Of a DNA stretch of 64,000 nt, positions 46,460 to 62,506 are shown piece by piece (the first letter of the stretch is position 1; each line of letters begins with the position of its first letter). A program made the position numbers and the translations under genes. The stretch is taken from contig NZ_CP035730.1 in the NCBI RefSeq assembly GCF_012222305.1, forward strand, positions 434,001-498,000, read 5' to 3'. Under the pieces are notes generated by a model, which worked only from the letters and a program-made list of their open reading frames with translations, did no database searches and was not told the origin of the DNA. Source of the stretch: Sulfolobus sp. S-194 (GTDB lineage: Archaea > Thermoproteota > Thermoprotei_A > Sulfolobales > Sulfolobaceae).

Positions 46460-46649
46460 CGAGTATGTAGTTATCGTCCAGATCCTTCAGATATCCATAA
46501 TTAATATAAAAATTCACGACCTTATCTAAAGATCCTACGTAACGGTCTCTTCTCTGATCGCCTTCATCCTTCTCTATGACGTAAACATAATACTTCCCAT
46601 TAACCTCACGAATTCTGATATCACCAAATGTGTAATCTTTATTATCCAT
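46425..46649 (-). pseudogene. SSV-type integrase N-terminal fragment truncated by MITE
   Basis: A 74-codon frame whose first 63 codons match, in pattern, the N-terminal domain of SSV-type tyrosine integrases: IRIREVNGKYYVYVIEKDEG, then RYVGSLDKVVNFYINYG. The second fragment at 49523 has the same series (KYYVYSIEKD, YIGPLDKIVKFY). The last codons come from the MITE. No catalytic R..HxxR..Y region exists nearby, so the protein is not functional as a recombinase. It is a relic of an integrated virus or plasmid. Confidence 0.75.
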
Positions 46650-46881
46650 TCTCTTTTTATACTTTATCCTTGTTGCTAAGGCTATTTAAAGACTGTTAAT
46701 TATTATATCTTATGTGAAACTGAAAGAAGGCGATAACAATTCACGGCTCTTCAAAAGACTTAATTCCAAGGAGCGAGATATTTTCTAAACTTATAGCCAA
46801 CATTGTTAGTTAGTTTCTTTTATATATAGTGATAGTAAAATATGCTATAAAATTTAAATATTGCAATTAGAACTGTATTTG
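46650..46881. other. Intergenic region, nothing recognised
   Basis: 232 bp. It contains the promoter side of the integrase fragment (TATA-like stretches near 46680-46720 on the minus strand) and the 3' flank of the transporter gene. No gene is seen. Confidence 0.4.
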
Positions 46882-49159: not shown

Positions 49160-49522
49160 TTTTCCTCTAAATCTAAACTTTGCTAGAACGTTTTTTATAA
49201 CTATCGTAATACATTAAAAGATTTTAATTAAGAGTGAATTGCATTTTATCCTTTAAACAATTTTCTTATCTTTATAGATGTTTTAGTAAATAGTTTTTAA
49301 AGATTTGATAATTCTCTAGGTTAGTTAAGCATTATGTAACGATTTAAAAATAAGAGCTGAAGAAAACTACGAAATAATCCTTAATTATTATCCTTCAATT
49401 TATTTACGTTAAATTTGTTTTAATGTCAAATAATATCTTTCACATTAGTTTAACTTTATAATTACACATTGTAAAAATCAATGCTTAAAAGTTATATAAA
49501 AATAAATTGGCATAGTTTAAAT
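49160..49522. other. Intergenic region, nothing recognised
   Basis: 363 bp, AT-rich. The left part holds the promoter of the minus-strand unit; the right part contains TATA-like stretches (near 49455) before the integrase fragment. No gene, repeat or RNA structure was seen. Confidence 0.4.
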
Positions 49523-49726
49523 ATGGGTTATAGGGTTTTCTCAGCCGGGCAATATAAGATTCGTCAGAGAGATAAGAAGTATTATGTTTACTCCATAGAG
49601 AAGGACTCAAATGGTAACGTGAAGGAAACTTACATAGGTCCTTTAGACAAGATCGTAAAGTTTTACTGTGAGAAAGGGCTCGGGCCGGGATTTGAACCCG
49701 GGACTTCCGGGTCCACAGACCTCTAA
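49523..49726 (+). pseudogene. SSV-type integrase N-terminal fragment (int-N) running into tRNA-His att copy
   Basis: 67 codons from ATG 49523. The sequence KYYVYSIEKD, YIGPLDKIVKFY is the SSV integrase N-terminal domain. The end GPGFEPGTSGS is encoded by the tRNA-His 3' half on the complementary strand, as in SSV1 integrase, where the phrase GFEPGTSGS also comes from the attachment site. The fragment stops three codons after the att copy (TDL then TAA). This is the classical N-terminal piece left when an SSV-type element integrates; the matching C-terminal piece was not found in the window. Confidence 0.85.
49676..49718. repeat. att copy (left), 43 bp identical to tRNA-His 3' half
   Basis: Identical to 62431-62473, covering tRNA-His from the anticodon loop to the base after the discriminator. 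Identity ends abruptly at 49719, where the sequence continues ACCTCTAAAAGT instead of the tRNA 5' half. Marks the left border of the 12.8-kb insertion and the right border of an older element to its left. Confidence 0.93.
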
Positions 49727-49820
49727 AAGTCAGTATGGGAATCTCATTTATTGCAAGATAAATTAAAACTTAGAATAAATTGAATTTAACACAGTAATTT
49801 ACGATAAAATATTATATATT

Positions 49821-50516
49821 TCAGCCTATTATAACTAATAAATAATATTTTCTCTTGAATATACTAGAGATATACAATTTATTCAACGCCGACAGAAGAG
49901 GAAGCATAGAATCAGCCGGACTTAAGGGAAAAACACTTCCTTGATAACACCCTTGCCCTACCCCTTTTACCTCTTGAACTACGCGATAACTCAAGCCTTT
50001 CAATTCGCAAAACTTCCGCAACTTAACCCTTCTCCAAGAACTAACAAAAAACCAAACATTCAAGAGAAAATAAGAAAGAAGAACGAGAACCAATTCCTTC
50101 CTAACATCACAACTCCTACTCCTAATCCTAAACTCCTCCAAAGAACGAAAAGCAGTCTCAACACCCCACCTACACCTATACATCTCAGCCAAAACAACAG
50201 CCCCTTGAACATCAACCTCACCCCTAATCAAAAACCCCACAACCTTACCATCCCCCCTCTTAAGCACAATTAAATAAGCACCAGAATCATGCCTCACACA
50301 CAAGAAACCAACATACCTCACCCCGGCGTAATTAACATCAACTTGCTTAAGCCTCTTCTCATACTTCCTATACATTTGAACCTTAGCAGCTATAACAAAG
50401 TCCACACCCAACTCCAAGAGAAACTTGATCACATCATTTACAGCAAACTCCCTATCTGCAAAGACCATGACAAGTCTAAGTCCCTCTTTATCCAGTTCTT
50501 CCTTAAGGACTTGCAT
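49821..50516 (-). CDS. Transposase of IS-A copy 1, C-terminal frame
   Basis: 231 residues. It contains VFADREFAVNDVI, the second Asp of the DDE triad, and AEMYRCRWGVETAFRSLEEF, the YREK-type region (Y-x2-R-x3-E) of IS4-superfamily transposases carrying the catalytic Glu. It begins at ATG 50516, which overlaps the stop of the N-terminal frame (TAATG). A single extra A in the A5 run near 50520 would join both frames into one protein of about 377 residues, so the split is either a frameshift mutation or a programmed -1 shift. Confidence 0.85.
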   Translation of the reverse strand: MQVLKEELDKEGLRLVMVFADREFAVNDVIKFLLELGVDFVIAAKVQMYRKYEKRLKQVDVNYAGVRYVGFLCVRHDSGAYLIVLKRGDGKVVGFLIRGEVDVQGAVVLAEMYRCRWGVETAFRSLEEFRIRSRSCDVRKELVLVLLSYFLLNVWFFVSSWRRVKLRKFCELKGLSYRVVQEVKGVGQGCYQGSVFPLSPADSMLPLLSALNKLYISSIFKRKYYLLVIIG

Positions 50517-50953
50517 TACTTTTTGAAGTCCTCGGCTATTCTCTTTATTGTTATTGGTAGGACTTCTAGGAAGGCTTTTTTTCTTCCTAGTAGGAAGATT
50601 GCTGCTTGGGCTAGTCCCCAGCTAGTCCCCTTATTTGGTCTACTTAATAGTGTTTTATCCTTGTGGTATTGTGGTATTGAGTGTAGGTCTATTGTTACTC
50701 TTCTATCCCTAGTTTCTCTTAATGCTTTCTTTCCCAATTCCTTGATTGCTTTTCTCACGTCTTCAACATTGATGTGGTTCAAGGCTCTTCTTCCCTCGTT
50801 TCCTAGTCTTGTCAAGTATGTTCCCCTAGCTTTAAGTAAGGCCTTGAGGAGTTGTTTAGGGAAAAGTATTATAGGGAGAGTTGAGTAAATTATCTTGAGG
50901 GCGGACCTGGCGAAGTCCCTATTGGTTTGCTTGACCCATTTTGTCTTAGGCAT
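50516..50953 (-). CDS. Transposase of IS-A copy 1, N-terminal frame
   Basis: About 145 residues from ATG 50953 (MPKTKWVKQTNRDFA). It contains RRVTIDLHSIPQYHKDKTL, with the first catalytic Asp. It ends in DFKK followed by TAA; the A-run just before the stop (AAAAAG) is where continuity with the downstream frame is lost. An upstream extension of this frame to 51118 leaves the element and is not part of it. Confidence 0.82.
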   Translation of the reverse strand: MPKTKWVKQTNRDFARSALKIIYSTLPIILFPKQLLKALLKARGTYLTRLGNEGRRALNHINVEDVRKAIKELGKKALRETRDRRVTIDLHSIPQYHKDKTLLSRPNKGTSWGLAQAAIFLLGRKKAFLEVLPITIKRIAEDFKK

Positions 50954-51208
50954 ATGATTAGGTCCACCCTCACTTATACAAACTTTTCTACAAAAATTAG
51001 CATAAATTAGATTTTTCTGAAATTTATTCATCTCGTTTTTTACGCAAAAAATGAGATTCCCATACTGAAGTTGCAAAGCAACGAGAAGGAGGAAAGTAAA
51101 AAGTTGCACGTTGAACAATTTAAAGCATAATACGTATAGCAGTTATTGGAAAATCCTTGTAGACTGAGGGAGGCTTGAAAACTTTTTAAAAATTAACCAA
51201 ACAAAATA

Positions 51209-52376
51209 CCCTAGACCCCAAATTCATCACCCCGAAAATAATTCAAGTGAATTAAAAAGTGGATAAAATATTTTAACTAAATATTCTTGAATAGTTGTAA
51301 TATTATCCTGTAAAAACAAGGCGATTAGGAGTAAGCGAAAATCTTCCTTGCTCGTCGTCCCCTTGAGGAGCAAGTATAGTGTATAGATTAACATTGCTAG
51401 GACGAAGATAAACAAGCGGAATAAGCGACTCCTTGATGACGTGAAGATTAGGAAAGATTTGATCAACTTGTATGATGTTTCTATTGGTGTTCTAACCTTG
51501 TTATACCACTTTACAACCATACTCCTATTTACGTCTAGGTTTGTCCCTTTAGCCAGGTACTCCTTTTCCCTACCATGGTGTATTATTAGTCTGAATTTTG
51601 CTTTTTTGCCTCTTGATTTTGCAGTGTAATCGCCGTCGAAGTTTCGATGTATTCCAACCTTTTCCACGGGTACTCCGATGATGAAGTTAAACCTTGATAA
51701 GTAGTTGATTACATCTACTGAGTAAAATCCGGCATCTAGTGCTATTAGTTCTATTTCTAGGCCCAATGCTAGTATTTGTTTTACTAGGTTTTCAACTATC
51801 TCTAGTCTGGTCATTCCTTTTTCTACGCGTGTGAATGCTAGTATTAGTGTTTTTCCCTTTACTCTTGTTGTTGCTGTCGCGTAGTTCCATGAGTAACCTT
51901 GTTTTGATCCGCTTGTTCCTTCTACGGGTTTTCCTTTGTATTTTATTGATGTCCAGTCTATTGAAATTTTTACGCGTTTTCTTTCGCTTAGTTGCTTGAT
52001 GGAGATTGTTTTGATCACGTTTAGTATTTGTTCTATTACTTGTGGTTGTTCTTCCACGTAGTTTCTTACTGTTTGTGGTGATATGTCAAATTCTTTTGCC
52101 TTGTTTTCCACGGAATCTTTTGTTAGTGCTGCTGTTACAAGTGTTTTCTTGACTTCTTCTGCCTTTCTTCCCTTGAAGTTTATGATGGAAAATATTTTTT
52201 CCTCGATTTGTACACGTATTTTAGGGTAGATGTAGTCTGGTGTTTTCAAGTGTTTCTCCCCTAAAGTAATACCAAACTACATCTACCCTAAACTTTTTCT
52301 CTAATTACAAAATTTTCAAGATAATAGATAATTATTCCCTGTAATTATTTTTGTAAAATGAATTTGGAGTCTAGGG
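51209..52376. mobile_element. IS-C (1168 bp) nested in IS-B copy 1
   Basis: Imperfect inverted ends of about 19 bp: CCCTAGACCCCAAATTCAT on the left and the complement of CCCTAGACTCCAAATTCAT on the right. A 4-bp duplication AATA flanks it (51205-51208 and 52377-52380). Virtual excision restores a leader aligned base for base with that of IS-B copy 2, just upstream of the transposase start. This gives the order of insertion: IS-B first, IS-C later. Confidence 0.9.
51227..52249 (-). CDS. DDE transposase of IS-C
   Basis: 340 residues. An N-terminal helix-turn-helix region (SVENKAKEFDISPQTVRNYV) precedes a DDE core: KISIDWTSIKYKGKP with the first Asp, LIALDAGFYSVDVINYL with the second, and RTPIETSYKLIKSF with the catalytic Glu and the IS4/ISH3-like spacing to Lys. 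The C-terminal end is hydrophobic. The gene fills the IS and appears intact. Confidence 0.9.
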   Translation of the reverse strand: MKTPDYIYPKIRVQIEEKIFSIINFKGRKAEEVKKTLVTAALTKDSVENKAKEFDISPQTVRNYVEEQPQVIEQILNVIKTISIKQLSERKRVKISIDWTSIKYKGKPVEGTSGSKQGYSWNYATATTRVKGKTLILAFTRVEKGMTRLEIVENLVKQILALGLEIELIALDAGFYSVDVINYLSRFNFIIGVPVEKVGIHRNFDGDYTAKSRGKKAKFRLIIHHGREKEYLAKGTNLDVNRSMVVKWYNKVRTPIETSYKLIKSFLIFTSSRSRLFRLFIFVLAMLIYTLYLLLKGTTSKEDFRLLLIALFLQDNITTIQEYLVKIFYPLFNSLELFSG

Positions 52377-52384
52377 AATATCGT

Positions 52385-53452
52385 GTGAATAAAAACCTCA
52401 GCAACGATACGTATTACCAAGCTTTAAACGATGCAATACATGCTGCACTAGCCCCACTAGAAAACATAAGAAAAGATACTGCAGTAAGACTACTACTAGG
52501 AGGAATAATAGGCAAGGGAGCATACGAAATATCACAAGAGATAAACATGGACTACATGACACTACTCAAAAACCTAGACAAGATAGCAAACGCAAACCTA
52601 GTAAAAGCAGTAAAAAACATAGTAAAAGACCACCCGGTACTACTAATAATAGACGACACACACGACCACAAAGAATACGCGAGAGCGATACCGGTATCAA
52701 GAAACGGAGCACAAGTATACTACTGCAAAACACACAAGAGATACGAACCAACAATACAACTCCTCATAATAACAATAAAGGACTTGAAAACAAACGAAAC
52801 TTATACGGTCTCAATAATACCGTATATACCACAAAAGGTTGTTGAGGTGTTAAGGGAGAGGGGAGAGGAAGTTGAGTTCAAGACCAAAATACAAGAATAC
52901 TTGGAAATATTACCGGGACTTGAAAAGGAGTTCAACATTGTGGGCAAGGTCTTCGACTCTTGGTATGTTAATTCTAAGACTCTTCTTGATGATACCGTCG
53001 GGGAACTCAAGTCCAACGCGCGGGTCGTCGAGGGTGGCAGATCCGTACCCGTTGGCGAGTTCCCCCAAGGGGAGTACTTAGTAGAATACTTGGGTACTCC
53101 CATAAAGTTACTTGTTATAGATGATTATAAGGGTTACGGGAGGAGGTATTTCTTCTCAACGAACGTCAACGATTCTCCCGAGGACATCTTAACCACTTGG
53201 GAGAACCGTTGGGACATCGAGGTGTTAATCAGGGAGTTGAAGGCTCTAGGTTTGGAGAAGGGTTCCTTCCTCACCTGGTTGAGGAACACCGGTTTCATTA
53301 TCTTAAAGACCTTTTCTTTGCTTGTAGTCTTGGTCTTCAAGTATTCCTTAGGTTTAAATCTAGGAGCTAAAAGGCTCTCTAGGTTGATAAAAAGAATTTA
53401 TCAAGGAGGCGGAGGAATCAAAAAATTATTTAAACGTAAGAGAAATCCGTAA
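52385..53452 (+). CDS. DDE transposase of IS-B copy 1
   Basis: About 355 residues from GTG 52385, which aligns with ATG 53541 of copy 2 (VNKNLSNDTYYQA against MDKNSEKQAYYKA). LLIIDDTHDHKEYARAIPV carries the first Asp pair, VFDSWYVNSKTLL the second, and ENRWDIEVLIRELKALG the R-x3-E-x6-K motif with the catalytic Glu. The open frame extends 9 codons upstream into IS-C, an artefact of the nested insertion. IS-C lies only 8 bp upstream of the GTG and probably cuts the gene from its own promoter. Confidence 0.88.
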   Translation: MNKNLSNDTYYQALNDAIHAALAPLENIRKDTAVRLLLGGIIGKGAYEISQEINMDYMTLLKNLDKIANANLVKAVKNIVKDHPVLLIIDDTHDHKEYARAIPVSRNGAQVYYCKTHKRYEPTIQLLIITIKDLKTNETYTVSIIPYIPQKVVEVLRERGEEVEFKTKIQEYLEILPGLEKEFNIVGKVFDSWYVNSKTLLDDTVGELKSNARVVEGGRSVPVGEFPQGEYLVEYLGTPIKLLVIDDYKGYGRRYFFSTNVNDSPEDILTTWENRWDIEVLIRELKALGLEKGSFLTWLRNTGFIILKTFSLLVVLVFKYSLGLNLGAKRLSRLIKRIYQGGGGIKKLFKRKRNP

Positions 53453-53459
53453 ACTGCTA

Positions 53460-53465
53460 TACGTA
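53460..53465. repeat. Shared 6-bp palindrome TACGTA between tandem IS-B copies
   Basis: TACGTA occurs at 51131, 53460 and 54617, that is, on both sides of each IS-B copy, and one copy is shared by the two elements. It is most simply a palindromic 6-bp target duplicated on insertion. Confidence 0.8.
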
Positions 53466-54616
53466 TAGCACTTGTCGGAAAATCCGTGCAGACCAAGGAG
53501 ACCTTGAAAACTTTTTAAAATTAACCCGGATGAAATATGCATGGATAAAAACTCAGAAAAACAAGCGTATTACAAAGCGTTGGAGAATGCAATAATCATA
53601 ACACTTACCCCACTAGAGGGCTTAAGAAAAAGCACAGCAGCAAAACTAATACTAGGGGGAGTAATAGGTTGCACAGCATCAGAAATAGCACAAGAAATAA
53701 ACATGGACTATGAGACAACACTAAAAAACTTGGACAAGATAGCAAACACTAGCTTAATAAAAGCAGTAAAGGAAATAGTAAAAGACCACCCGGTACTACT
53801 AATAATAGACGACACACATGACCATAAACAATACGCAAGAGCAATACCAGTATCGAGAAACTGCACACAAGTATACTACTGCAGAGAACACAAGAGATAC
53901 GAGCCGGCAATACAACTACTAATAATAGTATTAAAGGACTTGAGAACAAACGAGACTTACATAGTAGCAATAACACCCTACATACCGCAAAAGGTTGCAG
54001 AAATACTCAAAGAAAGGGGTGAAGAGGCAGAGTTCAAGACAAAAATCCAGTTATACCTAGAGTTACTACCGATACTCTTAAGTGAGTTCAATGTTGTTAT
54101 TATCTCCTTCGACTCTTGGTATGTTAATTCTAAGACTCTTTTACCTAATACTGTGGGGGAACTCAAGTCCAACGCGCGGGTCAACGAGGGTGGTAGATCC
54201 GTGCCCGTTGGCGAGTTCCCCCAAGGGGAATACCTAGTTGAGTATCTAGGTGTTCCCATAAAGTTACTTGTAGTAGATGATTATAAGGGTTTGGGTAAGA
54301 GGTACTTCTTCTCTACTAATGTAAATGATACTTCAGAGGACATAATAACTTCATGGGAGAGTCGTTGAGGATATTGGGGTTTTGATTAGGGAGTTAAAGG
54401 CGTTGGGGTTGGATAAGGGTTCTTTCCTCACTTGGGTTAGGAATAAGGGTTTCATAACCCTTAAAGCCCTCTCCCTCCTCTTCGTTCTCTCATTCAAATA
54501 CTCCCTTGGTTTACACCTCGGTGCCAAGAGAATTGCTAGATTGATAAAAACTGTTTATCAAGAATCTGGAGGGATAAAGAAATTGTTTAAGTGGAGGAGA
54601 AAAACATAAACTGCTA
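53466..54616. mobile_element. IS-B copy 2 (1151 bp)
   Basis: Ends TAGCACTT and AAACTGCTA, flanked by TACGTA at 53460-53465 and 54617-54622. It is in the same orientation as copy 1 and directly adjacent. The left leader is nearly identical to that of copy 1; the transposase is broken. Confidence 0.9.
53541..54609 (+). pseudogene. Frameshifted transposase of IS-B copy 2
   Basis: The first frame runs 53541-54368 (275 residues) with the Asp motifs IIDDTHDHKQYARA and SFDSWYVNSKTLL. It stops after SWESR because of one extra A in CGTTGAGG near 54373; removing it restores WDIGVLIRELKALG, continuous with the rest of the gene to 54609. Even in the restored frame the catalytic Glu of WDIEVLIRELK is Gly, so this copy is doubly inactive. 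Confidence 0.88.
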
Positions 54617-54622
54617 TACGTA

Positions 54623-54792
54623 AAATAGAATTGAGTATAAAATATAGCTTAGTAACGTTAGACATTGCTTTCTAAAATGATATCTATCTTTTGATAAAGG
54701 TACTTATCCCAAATATATTTGAGATTCGGAGGCAATGTAATGATAAACTTATTCCCCTTCTTTGAAATCTTTCTAGGTTTAAACTTGGAAAA
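54623..54792. other. Intergenic region between IS-B and kinase module
   Basis: 170 bp with no gene. It is the 3' flank of the kinase module on the minus strand; T/C-rich stretches near 54765 could serve as a terminator when read on the minus strand. Confidence 0.35.
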
Positions 54793-55560
54793 TCAATCTA
54801 CCCTGAAATAAACTATCAATACTCTATCACCAGGTTTCGCTACTCCATTTAAACGTAAGGGTACGTACGTATGTAAATCAGAGTCTTTAACGTAATCCGC
54901 TTCCCAGTATACAGAGTTTGAAACTGGTATATCGACACCGTAATTATCTACGCTATATTCCTTGTTTTCAACAGTAATTTTAGCTTCTGTATTTCTAGGT
55001 AGACCAATAACATCAAACATGATATGGTTTCGTTTAGCTTGTTTTCCATAGAGAAGCAATAACACTATACCGATAGGTGCTAAAATACCGCTCAGGATTA
55101 CTAAGGAGCCGAACCTAGCCAAATTCGATCCCTCACTGGTCATGAATAGACTCAGGGAAAGTATAATATTTTGAATAAAATACGGAACCAATATATAAAT
55201 TATTTTGGGCACTGTGCTCGGTACATTAGGGTAACCGAATAACAATGCAAAGAAAATAAGTATTAGAGACAAGAAAATCAAACCGTCAGGGCTATCGTCG
55301 TCTGTTCTCATTCCTCTTGAAAGAATGCTATTTACTGTTTTAAAAAATGATCTAGTTAAATAAGCAGTTTTAGGACTAGTTGCGAATAGAATAGTTGCTA
55401 TAACTATAGACATCACAAAGGAGATGTAAACTAATACCGCGTCTATACCCTCTAAAATTCCAATTTGAACCTTTAAGAGAAATATTAATGCTAATGCTTC
55501 AAATATCAGAAAGGGTGAAAGGTAGAAGACCCCATCTCTCAAATCGCTCAGGTAACTCAT
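54793..55560 (-). CDS. Kinase-less membrane paralogue of the kinase module
   Basis: 255 residues from ATG 55560, which overlaps the stop of the 577-residue kinase gene as ATGA; an upstream extension of the frame overlaps that gene and has no coding character. It has five or six hydrophobic segments (about 12-175) and then a beta-rich domain: VIGLPRNTEAKITVENKEYSVD, then VAKPGDRVLIVYFRVD. The same GLP..A..V..K.Y and PGD blocks stand between membrane part and kinase in the three neighbours. Here the protein ends after this domain. It could be a sensor or partner that forms mixed complexes with the kinases. Confidence 0.75.
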   Translation of the reverse strand: MSYLSDLRDGVFYLSPFLIFEALALIFLLKVQIGILEGIDAVLVYISFVMSIVIATILFATSPKTAYLTRSFFKTVNSILSRGMRTDDDSPDGLIFLSLILIFFALLFGYPNVPSTVPKIIYILVPYFIQNIILSLSLFMTSEGSNLARFGSLVILSGILAPIGIVLLLLYGKQAKRNHIMFDVIGLPRNTEAKITVENKEYSVDNYGVDIPVSNSVYWEADYVKDSDLHTYVPLRLNGVAKPGDRVLIVYFRVD

Positions 55561-57290
55561 GATCCCACCAACCTTGAAAAGTAATTGAAAACTTCTTCTG
55601 CTGTTGGTCTTGTTGAGGGGTCTGGTGATAGCATTCTTTTGACGAAGTTTTCTATCTCGTCTGGTAGGTTTGGTTGCCAAGATGATAGTTTTGTTTTTGC
55701 TTCGGAAATTTTGAGGGAGACGCAGTTTAGGTCGTGTTTTACATAACAATCGAATGCTTCGTTCATTTCCACTAGGTCGGGTCTGTCAGCTTTTCTGTTC
55801 AGTAAAACGTAGATTGTCATACCGAGTGCGAATATGTCTAATAGTGGTTTAGCTATACCTTCAAATACTTCCGGTGGGGAATATTCCAACGTTAATTGAT
55901 TTATTTTACTGCTAACCCTGAGAGCACTCCCCAAATCCCCCAACTTAAAGCCAACATTAAGTAGATAACGAGGACTGTTAGGCTTATCTTTTGCCAAGAA
56001 GATGTTTGATGGCTTAACATCCATGTAAACGTAACCGTGACCGTGGAGGTATTTTAAAGCTAAAGATACATCGGCCACAGCCTTATAAACTACTTTTTCC
56101 CAAATATGACTGTAATAGAAATTGTCATCTTTTAATAAGTCTTGTAAATTATCCTTCATCAATTCCATTACCATTATCGGAGGATTTATGAGGTATTGGG
56201 ATACATCGCCGTTAATTATTTTGTTTAGAGCAACACTGTCGACATAGAACCCGTATATCTTGATAATATTAGGGTGGTCTGATAGGTTTACAAGGCTCAT
56301 AGCTTCCTCACCCAACTTGGCAAAGAATTCCGTTAAGTTCTCGCTGAAAAGTTTGAATATCCTTATCGCCACCAGTTCGTCATTACTACTCTTTGCACTT
56401 AACACGTAACCGTAACCTCCTTCTCCTAAATACTTCAGAACAGTGTATGTGCCAATTTTTTTATTTAACCACACTTTGGTATCCCAAGTCGTGAGCAAAG
56501 GCTTTGATATCGATCTTGATCTAGGACTCAAAAAAGTTTCAGAATTTTTCACGAGCGTGTATTTTAACGTAATTACATCACCCGGTGTTACATAACCCCA
56601 TGAAAGGTCCGGCTTATAGACTCCGTAAGGCGAATTAATGTCTAACGCGTGCCAACTCTCGGTATAGCTATAAAGCGGTATGTGGAGAGTTTCGTTAAAC
56701 TCATAAGTTTTACCACCTATAATAACAATAGCATTTACTCCGGCTGGCAACCCCTCAACTTTAAAAGCGGCATGTTTAGAGGCTTGCTCAGAGGATCTCA
56801 ACATGGTTTTCATCCCCGAATAAGCCATGATCACCCCTATCGGGGAAAGAAACTGAGTGGCGATTAAATAACTTGCAAACTTTAGCCTTTTAGTACCGTG
56901 AATTTCTCCCATTTTATTAAACATGAATGAAATCGATGTCATGTGCATTAAATACATAAGAGCTGGGAACCAAAAATAAAAGTTAACATAGACAAAATCA
57001 GAAGCTACCACTAACCCCATGGTGGTGTAGGCTGGTAGTGCAACAAAACCAACGATCAAGTATCTGGTAATGTATTTAGAAAATATATCAATATCATCTA
57101 TAGAGAAAAAAGTTAAGAAACCATTAATTGCCATAAAGAACGCAAAAGCCACTTTTATGTTTTGTAAGGTTTGATCCACGAGGTTGACATCTAACGGAAA
57201 TAATTGTAAATTCATATAAACTAAAAAGTCGAACATTAATCCTTCTAATGTGAGGAGTATAAAGACGATTTTAAAGAATCGTTCTCGCAT
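55557..57290 (-). CDS. Membrane-anchored Hanks-type kinase with beta-3 Lys replaced by Arg
   Basis: 577 residues. About five hydrophobic segments (1-155), a beta-rich domain (about 170-265; VEGLPAGVNAIVIIGGKTY, GYVTPGDVITLKY) and a protein kinase domain (about 283-577). The P-loop is GEGGYGYVL; the usual VAIK reads VAIRIFK, so the ATP-anchoring Lys is Arg. The catalytic loop is YMDVKPSNIF (Asp, Lys and Asn kept) and the DFG motif is GDLGSA; EYSPPEVFEG is the APE region. Activity may be weak, or the Lys two residues on may compensate. The 3' 375 bp of coding sequence are identical to those of the next kinase gene upstream. It is coupled to the kinase-less gene. Confidence 0.85.
   Translation of the reverse strand: MRERFFKIVFILLTLEGLMFDFLVYMNLQLFPLDVNLVDQTLQNIKVAFAFFMAINGFLTFFSIDDIDIFSKYITRYLIVGFVALPAYTTMGLVVASDFVYVNFYFWFPALMYLMHMTSISFMFNKMGEIHGTKRLKFASYLIATQFLSPIGVIMAYSGMKTMLRSSEQASKHAAFKVEGLPAGVNAIVIIGGKTYEFNETLHIPLYSYTESWHALDINSPYGVYKPDLSWGYVTPGDVITLKYTLVKNSETFLSPRSRSISKPLLTTWDTKVWLNKKIGTYTVLKYLGEGGYGYVLSAKSSNDELVAIRIFKLFSENLTEFFAKLGEEAMSLVNLSDHPNIIKIYGFYVDSVALNKIINGDVSQYLINPPIMVMELMKDNLQDLLKDDNFYYSHIWEKVVYKAVADVSLALKYLHGHGYVYMDVKPSNIFLAKDKPNSPRYLLNVGFKLGDLGSALRVSSKINQLTLEYSPPEVFEGIAKPLLDIFALGMTIYVLLNRKADRPDLVEMNEAFDCYVKHDLNCVSLKISEAKTKLSSWQPNLPDEIENFVKRMLSPDPSTRPTAEEVFNYFSRLVGS
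55590..55964. repeat. 375-bp sequence identical to 57562-57936 (copy 1)
   Basis: Encodes the kinase C-lobe from just before the DFG-like motif to near the C-terminus. Compared base by base with copy 2, no difference was found. Flanking sequence diverges at once on both sides, which is the mark of gene conversion or recent recombination. Confidence 0.95.
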
Positions 57291-57534
57291 ACATATTAAT
57301 TTAGAAAATCATGTTATTAATTTTTCACCTTAATATTCAAAGTACGTCCCAGAGCTTAAAATATGTCTAAGCTTGGTCGGTTCACGGATCTATTGCGAAT
57401 TATAATAATTCACATCAATCATGTAATATTAACTATAGCCATCACTTTATGTAACCTAATCTGAGATTAAAATATATTTATTTAGGCTAAGAAAGACTGA
57501 ACCACCCCATACTTATCTTTTATTTGGCGTGAAT
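57291..57534. other. Intergenic region between two kinase genes
   Basis: 244 bp. On the minus strand, TATA-like stretches near 57470 and 57310 could drive the 577-residue gene separately. No gene or repeat was seen. Confidence 0.4.
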
Positions 57535-59226
57535 TTAGGGAAGAGAGTTAAAGTACATTACAACTTCTTCTGCTGTTGGTCTTGTTGAGGGGTCTGGTGA
57601 TAGCATTCTTTTGACGAAGTTTTCTATCTCGTCTGGTAGGTTTGGTTGCCAAGATGATAGTTTTGTTTTTGCTTCGGAAATTTTGAGGGAGACGCAGTTT
57701 AGGTCGTGTTTTACATAACAATCGAATGCTTCGTTCATTTCCACTAGGTCGGGTCTGTCAGCTTTTCTGTTCAGTAAAACGTAGATTGTCATACCGAGTG
57801 CGAATATGTCTAATAGTGGTTTAGCTATACCTTCAAATACTTCCGGTGGGGAATATTCCAACGTTAATTGATTTATTTTACTGCTAACCCTGAGAGCACT
57901 CCCCAAATCCCCCAACTTAAAGCCAACATTAAGTAGGTCCTGAGGGCTCATCGGTTTTTTAGTTATGAATATATTTGAGGGTTTAATGTCCATGTGTACA
58001 TATCCGTTTTCATGAATATACTTCAAAGCTAACGCTACTTCCTTTATGGCCTTATAAACGGCTTTCTTCCAATTTACACTTAAGTAGAATCTGTCATCTA
58101 ATAATAGATCATTTAATGTACCTGCCATAAGCTCCATTACGATCATCGGGGGGTCGGTAAGGTATAGAGCGTTGTCACCGTTAATTATCTTATTTATAGC
58201 TAAACTGTCGAGGTTGAATGCATAGACCTTAACGATATTAGGGTGGTCTGAAACCGTTACAAGGTTTAAAGCTTCTTGGCTTAACTCCTTGAAGAACTCC
58301 ATAGGTTTACCACCTAACAGTTTAAGTATTTTTATAGCAACTTCTTTACTATCACCGTATTTAGCCTTTAGAACATAACCGTTACCGCCTTCACCTATAT
58401 ACTTCTCAATAAAGTAGTTCGAAACATATCTCCCTTGCCAGATTTTAGGATCCCAATTGGTAAGCGGAGGTATAGTTGAAGGCGTTGTTATAGTGCTAGG
58501 CAACATATTCTTAGGCTTGGCTAAACTATACTCTATCGTAAACACATCTCCCGGATATGCGACACCCCAATTTTGTCTCGGTTCATAGATCCCTTCCCTC
58601 GTCTTCACTTCACATGTTTTCCAAAACTCACCGTCCTTATGTACTTTTACGTTAATTGTGTCTTTGAACTTGTAAGTTTTACCTCCCACGTTTATTATTG
58701 CCTTAGCTCTACACGGTAAGCCTCTAGCGTAAAACGTAGCGATTCCTAACTCCTCATCTTTTTTCTTCGTCGTTATTTTATTTAATGTTGTGTAAGCTAG
58801 AGCTGCCCCTAAAGGAGAAAGGAACTGAGTCATAATGAAGCACGAGGCTAACCTCAGCCTCCTTGAAGGTATAACAATGAGCATATCATAGAACGTCATG
58901 GCTAATGGGATCGTGTAGTTAACTAACGCTGTTATGGCAAACAAAAAGACGGAGGAGAAGTGGATGTATCCATACGCTATAAGAGCGTAAATTGTCGGAC
59001 TAACGATTAGTGAGACTAGCAAAAACACGAGGCCTAAAAATATCGTGAACTCGTCATACCAATCCTTGTTAATACCACGCAAAAGGAAAATAGTGAGAAC
59101 AATGCTAGATGGTGAAAGGGCTAGTAAAATTACGCTAACATACGGTAAGTGCATGAAGACCCGTAGGTCGAAGAGGAACCCCTCTACTGCAAGAAGTGCG
59201 AAAACAGTTTTAAGAAGTGATTCCAT
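57535..59226 (-). CDS. Membrane-anchored Hanks-type protein kinase, catalytically intact
   Basis: 563 residues. Five or so hydrophobic segments (about 1-150), a beta-rich domain (about 165-265; GLPCRAKAIINVGGKTYKF, VAYPGDVFTIEY) and a kinase domain (about 280-563). All expected motifs are present: GEGGNGYVLKA, VAIKILK with Lys, an alpha-C Glu in FFKELSQEALN, catalytic loop HMDIKPSNIF, GDLGSA for DFG, EYSPPE for APE, the helix F Asp in LLDIFALG and the helix I Arg in STRPTAEE. It is the likely active Ser/Thr kinase of the module, phosphorylating its paralogues or cell proteins at the membrane. Confidence 0.88.
   Translation of the reverse strand: MESLLKTVFALLAVEGFLFDLRVFMHLPYVSVILLALSPSSIVLTIFLLRGINKDWYDEFTIFLGLVFLLVSLIVSPTIYALIAYGYIHFSSVFLFAITALVNYTIPLAMTFYDMLIVIPSRRLRLASCFIMTQFLSPLGAALAYTTLNKITTKKKDEELGIATFYARGLPCRAKAIINVGGKTYKFKDTINVKVHKDGEFWKTCEVKTREGIYEPRQNWGVAYPGDVFTIEYSLAKPKNMLPSTITTPSTIPPLTNWDPKIWQGRYVSNYFIEKYIGEGGNGYVLKAKYGDSKEVAIKILKLLGGKPMEFFKELSQEALNLVTVSDHPNIVKVYAFNLDSLAINKIINGDNALYLTDPPMIVMELMAGTLNDLLLDDRFYLSVNWKKAVYKAIKEVALALKYIHENGYVHMDIKPSNIFITKKPMSPQDLLNVGFKLGDLGSALRVSSKINQLTLEYSPPEVFEGIAKPLLDIFALGMTIYVLLNRKADRPDLVEMNEAFDCYVKHDLNCVSLKISEAKTKLSSWQPNLPDEIENFVKRMLSPDPSTRPTAEEVVMYFNSLP
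57562..57936. repeat. 375-bp sequence identical to 55590-55964 (copy 2)
   Basis: The counterpart of copy 1, in the same orientation and same reading frame, within the intact kinase gene. Confidence 0.95.
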
Positions 59227-59287
59227 GATTAACCTTTAAACTACGCCGTAATTAGTTTTTCTTCCTATCCGGATCGTGGTGTGGTTA

Positions 59288-61015
59288 TTAAAGTGATGTA
59301 AAATACTTCACGACCTCTTTAGCGGTGGGTCTCTTCGAAGGGTCTGGTGAGACCATCCTTTCTACAAAGCCGTTTATCTCCTTCGGTAAATTAGGTTTCC
59401 AATCTTGCAATTTCGCTTTACCCTTCTTTACTATATCGGAAACAGATCTAGTGTCTCCATTTAGATAGCACTCCCGTAATTTTCTCAAGTCTTCCAAGTC
59501 CGGTCTTGTATTCTTACCTTCAAACAACTCGCAGATAGTAATACCTAAAGAGAATATGTCGAGTAAGGGAGTGATTACTCCTTCAAAAACCTCTTCCGGT
59601 AAATAGTCCACGTTCAATTCTCTGATCCGCCAGGAAGTGATTTTCACCGCATTTTCCAACCCTCCTAGCTTAAACTCGCCGTTACTTAAGAAGATGCTTG
59701 AAGGGCTGACAGCAGTGTGAATATAGCCTTGTGAATGTAAGTAATCTAATGCCGAAGCGATTTCCGCAACCGCCTTATAAATCATCCTCTTATCTAACTT
59801 AATGCTTTTCAAATTACCGTCAGTAGGATATTCACTAACAATGGTTAGTGGGTTCTCAAGATACGTTGAGTAATTACCTTTTAAGAAGTCCTTGATCACC
59901 AGTTCATCAACACTCATAGCATAAAGTTTGATGAGGTTAGGGTGATTTAAAAGCGCGATTAAGTTCGATACCTCCTCACCGAGTTCACGAAAGTACTTTT
60001 CAGGGTTCTCCTGTTTAACCTTTATCACCTTAACTAAGACCGCATTATTCCCGTTGGTTCCTTTAAACAGATAACCGTCAGAAGTCTCCCCTAAATAGGT
60101 CTCTAATTTGTAGGCTGAAACTGTTTTACCGATAAACGTTTCTGGTGCCACTTCGATGTACTTCTCCCTCATCTTTATTTTTACATATTCTATGTCTACA
60201 CGATCACCATAAAACGCGACACCGGATTTTTTTAGAGGCTCGTACACCTCACCCTTGTGAGATACTCTCTCAGACTGCCAAACCACAAATGGGTATTTTA
60301 TTTTCTTCTCGTACTTGATCTTACTCATCTTTCCGTTAATTCTTACCTTCGCCTTAACACCATCCGATAAATTATAAACCCTGAAGGTAACAATTTTTTT
60401 GTCTGTCGGATATTGCCTATAATAATTTTCTAACTCGCTTATCTCCTTACTGTATTTGTTTTTAAATTCATTTACAATCTTAGGTAATTCGTTCAAGGCA
60501 GATAATATTGCTGGTAATATTACGGGATACAAGACTATTGTAGCTGTCAATCTACTATACTTTATTAAGCGTTCTGAATTTAACACAAATCCGATAGAGT
60601 CTAACACGTACCATACGAGTAGATCGTGGGCCGTGAAATTCAGGATAAAGAAGGCTACAAATGCAGGGATCGGACTTACGGGAATGAGTTGAGCTGGAAA
60701 AGAAATACTTGCACCGATGCCGATTAATACACTCCCTATAACGAGCAAGATTAACGTTTGTATTTGACCTGAATCAATGATAGAAACGTGTATGGGTAAC
60801 GGGTTTACAGAATCAAGAACATTGTTTGACATTTGATATTCAAAAGAAAATAAGAGTACACTAAAGAAGATATAAGGAATACTAATAAACTCTAACAGAT
60901 CTTTGACTACCGTTTGGGGCAGGAAAAGTATTATAGGGATAGAGAAGAAAGCAACAATGTACTCGACCAGTAAGACGCGAGTTAAGCCTTGGAAAGCCCT
61001 TATCTCCTCAAGCAT
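59288..61015 (-). CDS. Membrane-anchored pseudokinase of the kinase module
   Basis: 575 residues. Hydrophobic segments at about 12-175, a beta-rich domain (about 210-290; VYNLSDGVKAKVRINGKM, VAFYGDRVDIEY) and a kinase-like domain (about 300-575). The glycine loop is GETSDGYLF (middle Gly missing). Lys is kept in LVKVIK. The catalytic loop reads HTAVSPSSIF instead of HRDxKPxN, so the base Asp, Lys and Asn are all lost, and the DFG motif reads GGLEN. The fold-supporting parts are kept (PEEVFEG, LLDIFSLG, KRPTAKEV). It is therefore expected to be inactive but folded, perhaps an allosteric partner of the intact kinase. It is the first gene of the module. Confidence 0.87.
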   Translation of the reverse strand: MLEEIRAFQGLTRVLLVEYIVAFFSIPIILFLPQTVVKDLLEFISIPYIFFSVLLFSFEYQMSNNVLDSVNPLPIHVSIIDSGQIQTLILLVIGSVLIGIGASISFPAQLIPVSPIPAFVAFFILNFTAHDLLVWYVLDSIGFVLNSERLIKYSRLTATIVLYPVILPAILSALNELPKIVNEFKNKYSKEISELENYYRQYPTDKKIVTFRVYNLSDGVKAKVRINGKMSKIKYEKKIKYPFVVWQSERVSHKGEVYEPLKKSGVAFYGDRVDIEYVKIKMREKYIEVAPETFIGKTVSAYKLETYLGETSDGYLFKGTNGNNAVLVKVIKVKQENPEKYFRELGEEVSNLIALLNHPNLIKLYAMSVDELVIKDFLKGNYSTYLENPLTIVSEYPTDGNLKSIKLDKRMIYKAVAEIASALDYLHSQGYIHTAVSPSSIFLSNGEFKLGGLENAVKITSWRIRELNVDYLPEEVFEGVITPLLDIFSLGITICELFEGKNTRPDLEDLRKLRECYLNGDTRSVSDIVKKGKAKLQDWKPNLPKEINGFVERMVSPDPSKRPTAKEVVKYFTSL

Positions 61016-61164
61016 TTACTTATAATTTTCATCAACTCTATATTAAACTTTATCAGGATACTATTATAGATGTTTTTTGGTAGTCTTCTAATCCGATATT
61101 TCGCTTTAGAACTGATGAGACTTTATACGACGAGAAAAGATTTACCTTATCTCCTCCCACACGT

Positions 61165-62360
61165 CAGTATGGGAATCTCTTTTATTGCAAGATAAATTAA
61201 AACTTATAGTAAACTGAATTTAACACAGTAATTTACGATAAAATATCATATATTTCGGCCTATTATAACTAATAAATAATATTTTCCTTGAATATACTAG
61301 AGATATACAATTTATTCAACGCTAACAGAAGATGAAGCATAGAATCAACTGGACTTAAGGGAAAAACACTTCCTTGATAACACCCTACCCCTTTTACCTC
61401 TTGAACTACGCGATAACTCAAGCCTTTCAATTCACAAAACTCCCACAACCTCATCCAAGAAAGAACCAAAACATTCATAAGAACGAGAACCAACTCCTTC
61501 CTAACATCACAAGTCCTACTCCTAATCCTAAACTCCTCCAAAGAACGAAAAGCAGTCTCAACACCCTACACCTATTCAGCCAAAACAACAGCCTCTTGAA
61601 CACCTCTTTCACCCCTAACCAAAAACCCCACCATCTCCCCCTCTTATAAATAAGCACCAGAATTACACACAAGAAACATACCCAGCGTAATTAACATCAA
61701 CTTGCTTTAGCCTCTTCACATACTTCCTATACATTTGAACCTTAGGAGCTATGACAAAGTCCAAGAGAAACTTGATCATTTACAGTAAACTCCCTATCTG
61801 CAAAGACGAGTCTAAGCCCCTTTTTATCCAACTTAAGGACTTGTATTACTTTTTTTTAGTCCTCGGCTATTCTCTTTATTGTTATTGGTAGGACTTCTAG
61901 GAAGGCTTTTTTTCTTCCTAATATTGTTGCTTGGGCTAGTTCCCTTATTTGGTCTACTTAATAGTGTTTTATCCTTGTGGTATTTAGTGTAGGTCTATTG
62001 TTACTCTTCTATCCCTAGTTTCTCTTGATGCTTTTTCCCGATTCCTTGGTTGCTTTTCTCATGTCTTCAACATTGATGTGGTTCAAGGTTCTTCTTCCCT
62101 CGTTTCCTAGTCTTGTCAAGTATGTTCCCCTAGCCTTAAGCTTGAGGAGTTGTTTAGGTATTATAGGGAGAGTTGAGTAAATTATCTTGAGGGCGGACCT
62201 GGCGAAGTCTCTATTGGTTTGCTTGACTCACTTTGTCTTAGGCATATGATTAGGTCCGCCCTCGCTTATACAAACTTTTCTACAAAAAATTAGCAAAAAT
62301 TAGATTTTTCTGTATTTCATTCATCTCGTTTTTTACGCAAAAAATGAGATTCCCATACTG
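61165..62360. mobile_element. IS-A copy 2, eroded by small deletions (1196 bp)
   Basis: The same element as 49731-51067: the inverted ends are kept (CAGTATGGGAATCTC and its complement) and a 4-bp duplication ACGT (61161-61164 and 62361-62364) flanks it. The interior is 141 bp shorter through many small deletions of a few to about twenty bases spread over the transposase, while the remaining sequence stays very similar. Confidence 0.92.
61269..62243 (-). pseudogene. Decayed transposase of IS-A copy 2
   Basis: The region aligns with the transposase of copy 1. Recognisable fragments remain (EEFRIRSRTCDVRKELVLVL near the C-terminal end), but frameshifting deletions break the frame many times, and the DREFA and YREK blocks are damaged. 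It cannot make a transposase. Confidence 0.88.
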
Positions 62361-62428
62361 ACGTAGTTGCAAATTTAACGCTCACAGTTGCATGAAGGTA
62401 AAATTTCTCTAAAAGAAGAACGTAAAAT

Positions 62429-62506
<78 letters not shown>

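Follow-up and report, generated by a model that had tools for sequence, protein, structure and literature searches.

A tandem series of membrane kinase paralogues with graded catalytic motifs in a tRNA-His island of Sulfolobus sp. S-194

The window analysed here is a 64,000-nucleotide stretch of the complete 2.79-Mb chromosome of the thermoacidophilic archaeon Sulfolobus sp. S-194 (G000), and coordinates below are positions within it unless another locus is named. At 54793-61015 it carries four consecutive minus-strand genes of one kinase family, in the order PK, K1, K2r and KL. The first gene, PK (59288..61015), encodes a membrane pseudokinase of 575 residues that consists of helices (residues 1 to ~200), a GLP-like beta domain (207-280) and a dead kinase domain (~295-575). 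It is followed by K1 (57535..59226), a membrane Hanks kinase of 563 residues with all catalytic residues, by K2r (55557..57290), a membrane kinase in which the VAIK Lys is replaced by Arg and the HxD His by Tyr, and by KL (54793..55560), a kinase-less paralogue of 255 residues with about six helices and a GLP beta domain (residues 179-254). PK and K1 are separated by 61 nt and K1 and K2r by 244 nt. A KL start at TTG 55749, which lies inside K2r (ORF 54793-55749), was rejected; the likelier start is the ATG at 55560, which gives the 255-residue product and overlaps the K2r stop by 4 nt (ATGA). Judged by eye, a weak candidate TATA box (TTTAATAT, 61040..61047, minus strand) lies 25-32 nt upstream of the PK start and a weaker AT-rich box precedes K2r; no comparable TATA-like box was seen at 25-32 nt ahead of K1. 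An operon-like arrangement of the four genes is supported. Directly after KL, a short minus-strand reading frame (54660-54792) is apparently interrupted by an ISC1217 copy, and a fifth cluster gene may have been lost at this point.

PK, K1 and K2r share one plan, in which membrane helices are followed by a GLP beta domain and a C-terminal kinase, and KL consists of the first two parts only. KL, which has no kinase domain, is a homologue of the N-terminal half of K1 (25% identity, BLASTP E = 1e-6). All four proteins match the GLP profile, of which they are themselves members, at E < 1e-22. The models of KL and PK predict an eight-stranded GLP domain bearing the GLP and P-G-D blocks; it is modelled with high confidence in both proteins and their helix parts with low confidence, as in KL, where pLDDT is 93-98 for residues 179-254 and ~50-66 for the helices. 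K1, K2r and KL have exact GLP and PGD blocks, whereas those of PK are degenerate (NLS and YGD). This layout is normal rather than special: helices, GLP domain and kinase are common to many Sulfolobales kinases, and GLP profile matches occur in 27 of 31 Sulfolobaceae genomes, with the strong matches sitting in kinases. In the kinases of L029 and L030 residue 21 already marks the start of the GLP domain, too close to the N terminus for several helices to precede it, which suggests that the domain is likely cytoplasmic, between membrane and kinase.

Comparison of the GLP domain with the PDB gave no weighty sequence or fold match, and Foldseek gave no clear fold. The last helix and GLP region of K2r resemble DUF973 (PF06157) below threshold (E = 9e-4, 18.9 bits versus a cut-off of 26.4). 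A link of KL to DUF973 was not confirmed, KL itself giving no DUF973 match in Pfam. A true DUF973 gene adjoins a membrane kinase in G020, a genome of a higher-GC genus. The same genome encodes, at L058:16222-17646, a protein that is probably secreted and whose repeats resemble the GLP domain linked to kinases (E = 8e-5), which suggests that a GLP-like domain may be used both outside and inside the cell.

The catalytic motifs of the kinase domains differ from copy to copy. K1 carries GEGGNG, VAIK, HMDIKPSN, DLG and SPPEV, so that the set of Lys (VAIK), Asp and Asn (HRDxxxxN) and Asp (DFG) is complete. K2r keeps the activation segment and reads VAIR, YMDVKPSN and DLG; it is without the VAIK Lys (K299R in K1 numbering), and a second, neighbouring conserved N-lobe Lys (K287 of K1) is Ser, which makes a WNK-like rescue by another N-lobe Lys unlikely. 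PK has an altered glycine loop (GETSDG), VLVK with the Lys kept, HTAVSPSS and GGL; the HRD Asp, the HRD Asn and the DFG Asp are gone, and the beta3 Lys and alphaC Glu are retained. Under a definition of pseudokinases as the kinase fold without the VAIK Lys, HRD Asp or DFG Asp, both PK (through the two Asp) and K2r (through the Lys) would be classed as such by sequence. All three domains are nonetheless recognised by Pfam Pkinase (E = 1e-24 to 1e-36), scoring 126.7 (K1), 124.4 (K2r) and 86.5 bits (PK) against a cut-off of 31.7 bits. Eight active relatives share 88 invariant kinase positions; K2r keeps 80 of these and PK 51, and the HRD Asp, the HRD Asn and the DFG Asp are among those lost from PK.

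These data reproduced much of the initial annotation, namely the four adjacent minus-strand genes with their motifs, a Hanks kinase at 57535 with every catalytic motif intact, the Lys-to-Arg change at 55557 and the pseudokinase at 59288 with HTAVSPSS for HRDxKPxN and GGL for DFG. It had missed the His-to-Tyr change in the HxD of K2r. The layout that it described is common to the four proteins but the GLP and PGD blocks are not exact in PK, and the gene without a kinase domain is indeed kinase-less but had been given the wrong start.

To place these losses within the family, about 125 distinct full-length kinase ORFs (350 aa or longer) were taken from the 31 Sulfolobaceae genomes, with some orthologues of one conserved kinase left out, and aligned to a family profile. 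Among them PK alone is without the catalytic residues and K2r alone is without the VAIK Lys; the remaining deviations come from truncated copies, from gene fragments or from a split gene. All 11 Sulfolobus kinases studied previously keep Asp or Glu at HRD, and no pseudokinase was among them (PMC5682000). The known transmembrane kinases of Sulfolobales, including SiRe_2056/Sso3182 and SiRe_0101/Sso2291, likewise combine an N-terminal membrane part with a Hanks kinase (PMC5682000). K1, K2r and PK branch inside the Sulfolobaceae kinase tree and belong with these membrane kinases bearing a GLP domain, from which KL departs in having no kinase; the described kinases, however, are not arranged in tandem as active, defective and kinase-less paralogues. 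Two TPR-repeat kinases, at L027:652-2421 (G030) and L057:5379-7166 (G020), are closely related across genera, which by sequence suggests transfer. In both, DLGG replaces DLGS, and in the G020 copy Gln stands in place of the HRD His.

When 53 kinase domains were placed in a tree, the cluster copies grouped as (PK,(K1,K2r)) at 100/96, the pairing of K1 with K2r being partly inflated by conversion, and they fell, with a long branch for PK, in a patchy clade made up mostly of G020 sequences. GC3 is 0.40-0.42 in PK, K1 and K2r and 0.32 in KL, compared with 0.20-0.21 in the four flanking housekeeping genes taken as reference. The cluster genes are foreign by GC3 and locally duplicated, and they were most likely acquired from a GC-richer relative. 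A 375-bp tract of K1, running from the DFG region and activation segment to the end of the C-lobe (57562..57936, minus strand), is 100% identical to its counterpart in K2r (55590..55964, minus strand). Outside this tract the two genes are 40-80% identical with saturated synonymous sites; the tract is a recent gene conversion between old paralogues. The same genome encodes a further membrane kinase, 235 kb away (L001:118-2373). Its GC3 is 0.52, its closest relatives occur in G029 and the GC-richer G020, and it is probably a separate horizontal transfer.

The cluster lies in an island bounded by an intact tRNA-His (GTG) gene (62431..62505, minus strand) and a 47-bp copy of its 3' part (49675..49721), an att-like repeat with one mismatch for which no match is expected by chance. 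The space between them is taken up by the kinase cluster, the sole non-IS cargo, and by five IS copies or remnants, with no other sizeable gene. The IS copies comprise a DDE_Tnp_1 element with a broken transposase frame (49729..51071), a degraded second copy of it in the same orientation (61163..62366), an IS with a DUF4322/DDE transposase (51130..52300, minus strand, outer limits approximate) and two tandem ISC1217-type copies (DDE_Tnp_2; 52358..54616, plus strand). The island has no integrase, nor room for one between the IS copies and the kinase genes. Thus, although the direct repeats of a tRNA 3' end expected of an SSV-type element are present, int(C) and int(N) parts were not found inside them. 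Only an N-terminal remnant of an SSV-type integrase, int(N), runs into the left repeat from outside (49466..49722, plus strand; six-frame reading, by eye), pointing to serial integrations at tRNA-His, an older element having entered on the left and the one that carries the kinases on the right. A second such remnant lies at 46530-46650 on the minus strand. DNA like the first remnant recurs beside tRNA-like sites in several congeners, and congeners carry other DNA at the same tRNA-His, as in G028, where a 16.4-kb stretch between tRNA-His repeats (L082:972-17430) has quite different genes. By these sequence comparisons tRNA-His appears to be an integration hotspot in the genus. The view of the cluster as cargo of an integrated element is therefore supported as to a foreign, decayed island between tRNA-His repeats, but not as to a working element.

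A location at such a hotspot would suit a defence or competition system on a mobile element, as had also been proposed, and the kinase domains do show weak similarity to the MADS and PD-T4-6 kinases. This similarity is generic to Hanks kinases, however, and lies far below the NCBIfam cut-offs (65-73 bits versus 460 for MAD6, 10-14 versus 990 for PglW of BREX); PD-T4-6 was matched in PADLOC, whose output gives no curated cut-off. Moreover, no nuclease, toxin or other effector adjoins the cluster, and viral contigs, phages and plasmids gave nothing beyond generic kinase-domain matches, with no relatives outside that domain. We therefore rejected a defence assignment and regard such a function as very improbable. 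The viral and genome-contig scans used short back-translated peptides, which reach close relatives only, and returned one unrelated bacterial kinase.

The recurrence as a unit, which the initial annotation had named as its test of the module, did not emerge. Searches with KL and PK across 31 Sulfolobaceae and 229 Thermoproteia genomes returned no second set, and the four genes are absent together from all 228 Thermoproteia genomes other than that of S-194. In the three congeners the genes are missing, not broken. This confinement to one genome, in an island packed with IS copies and empty of other cargo, fits a history in which an acquired kinase was amplified, the extra copies became inactive without any joint function and only K1 matters. 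The long branch of PK agrees with such degeneration, as does the relaxed N-lobe of K2r, where second-position change (0.26) is as in PK. Broken kinases also occur elsewhere in the family: a GLP-kinase gene at L060:4564-5883 (G027) has an in-frame TGA between its GLP and kinase parts, and L164 and L134 contain split kinase ORFs and a fragment.

All four reading frames of the cluster are nevertheless intact after saturating synonymous divergence. Synonymous sites between K1 and PK are near or at saturation, which makes dN/dS unreliable, and the PK frame is open through 575 codons. When neutral change of the PK kinase domain was simulated, open frames fell to 2.4% at 0.1 and to <0.3% at 0.2 substitutions per site, and were abolished at 0.2-0.5. 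An open frame at this divergence argues that PK has not been released to decay. At sites conserved in active relatives, PK is changed at 21% of first, 25% of second and 57% of third codon positions (positions 1 and 2 versus 3, Fisher p = 0.0003-0.001), and its kinase domain is predicted to retain the fold, with pLDDT mostly 90-98 and matches to solved kinases. Some of this constraint may be older than the loss of catalysis; maintenance of PK as a pseudokinase is therefore likely, though unproved. Taken together, we hold duplication followed by degeneration to be a serious but doubtful account of the cluster.

It is also conceivable that K1, K2r, PK and KL are separate signalling proteins, each with its own input and output (PK, for example, as a substrate-docking scaffold), and that they are adjacent merely as tandem duplicates. 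Their membrane halves are indeed strongly divergent (dN 0.70 for K1/K2r and 0.87 for K1/PK), the 244-bp gap ahead of K2r has its own AT-rich box, and Sulfolobus kinases cross-phosphorylate in a network, a single kinase acting on many (PMC5682000). On the other hand, catalysis was lost only in copies beside K1, K2r and KL overlap at ATGA, and G020 has an independent kinase-less neighbour of a kinase, which together leave this account rather improbable. That neighbour, a 254-aa protein of helices and GLP domain adjoining a membrane kinase, is the sole kinase-less strong GLP match besides KL among the 31 Sulfolobaceae genomes. It is 37% identical to the neighbouring kinase and not close to KL, which indicates that a kinase-less partner beside a membrane kinase has two independent origins. 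Its gene lies ~425 bp from the kinase gene, with no obvious operon.

The best single reading, to which we assign a probability of about 0.4, is that the four genes are an acquired, locally duplicated membrane-kinase family that makes up a heteromeric regulatory module with a division of labour, the non-catalytic copies regulating K1. The observation that PK and K2r, the only deviants among the full-length Sulfolobaceae kinases compared, both lie beside K1 argues for this module. K1 would be its catalytic subunit, and the shared membrane and GLP half might serve as the assembly surface of the four proteins. Given its likely cytoplasmic position, we propose that the GLP beta-sandwich serves in coupling or assembly and not as an external sensor. 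PK, and probably K2r too, could act as non-catalytic partners that position or switch K1 through kinase-domain contacts, in the manner of HER3 towards EGFR or of KSR towards RAF, and KL would be a subunit that dilutes or separates kinase pairs as a built-in damper. Because the helix parts are divergent and modelled with low confidence, a shared assembly surface there is unproven. The module is plausible, unproven, and stays below even odds against its rivals combined, since the set is known from a single genome.

Regulation of kinases by pseudokinases has received much study in eukaryotes but little in prokaryotes, and to our knowledge archaeal pseudokinases are mostly survey entries. The cluster, with active, Lys-to-Arg, dead and kinase-less copies of one membrane receptor, would offer a single small test system for asking whether local duplication gave rise to pseudokinase regulation in archaea. 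It could also reveal what the GLP domain linked to kinases does, a domain found in most Sulfolobaceae genomes. We tentatively suggest a self-contained membrane complex of four paralogues (active, Lys-less, dead and kinase-less), movable between species, in which the non-catalytic members regulate the active one; as part of the same reading, and just as tentatively, it might be an archaeal counterpart of receptor kinase-pseudokinase heteromers. HER3/EGFR and KSR/RAF (PMC8141879) offer a functional analogy of a dead paralogue with an active kinase, membrane-based in HER3, but homology is limited to the kinase fold and the pairing proposed here is by analogy. MviN/PknB of Mycobacterium (PMC12599244) is alike in that an active Ser/Thr kinase regulates a membrane pseudokinase in a prokaryote, but involves no tandem paralogues, and MviN is without the VAIK Lys and binds no ATP, whereas PK keeps the beta3 Lys. 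A survey summarised in PMC10211241 reports pseudokinases in ~2% of archaeal proteomes, so that an archaeal pseudokinase alone is not new. PK resembles the pseudokinases described there in losing HRD and DFG residues within a kinase fold, but differs in its tandem placement with active, Lys-to-Arg and kinase-less paralogues. We found no publication on a tandem archaeal set of this kind in the open-licence literature. In G020, genes for a beta-propeller (NHL-type) protein, the kinase-less protein of helices and GLP domain and a membrane kinase follow one another on one strand (L054:11956-16708), a possible receptor arrangement.
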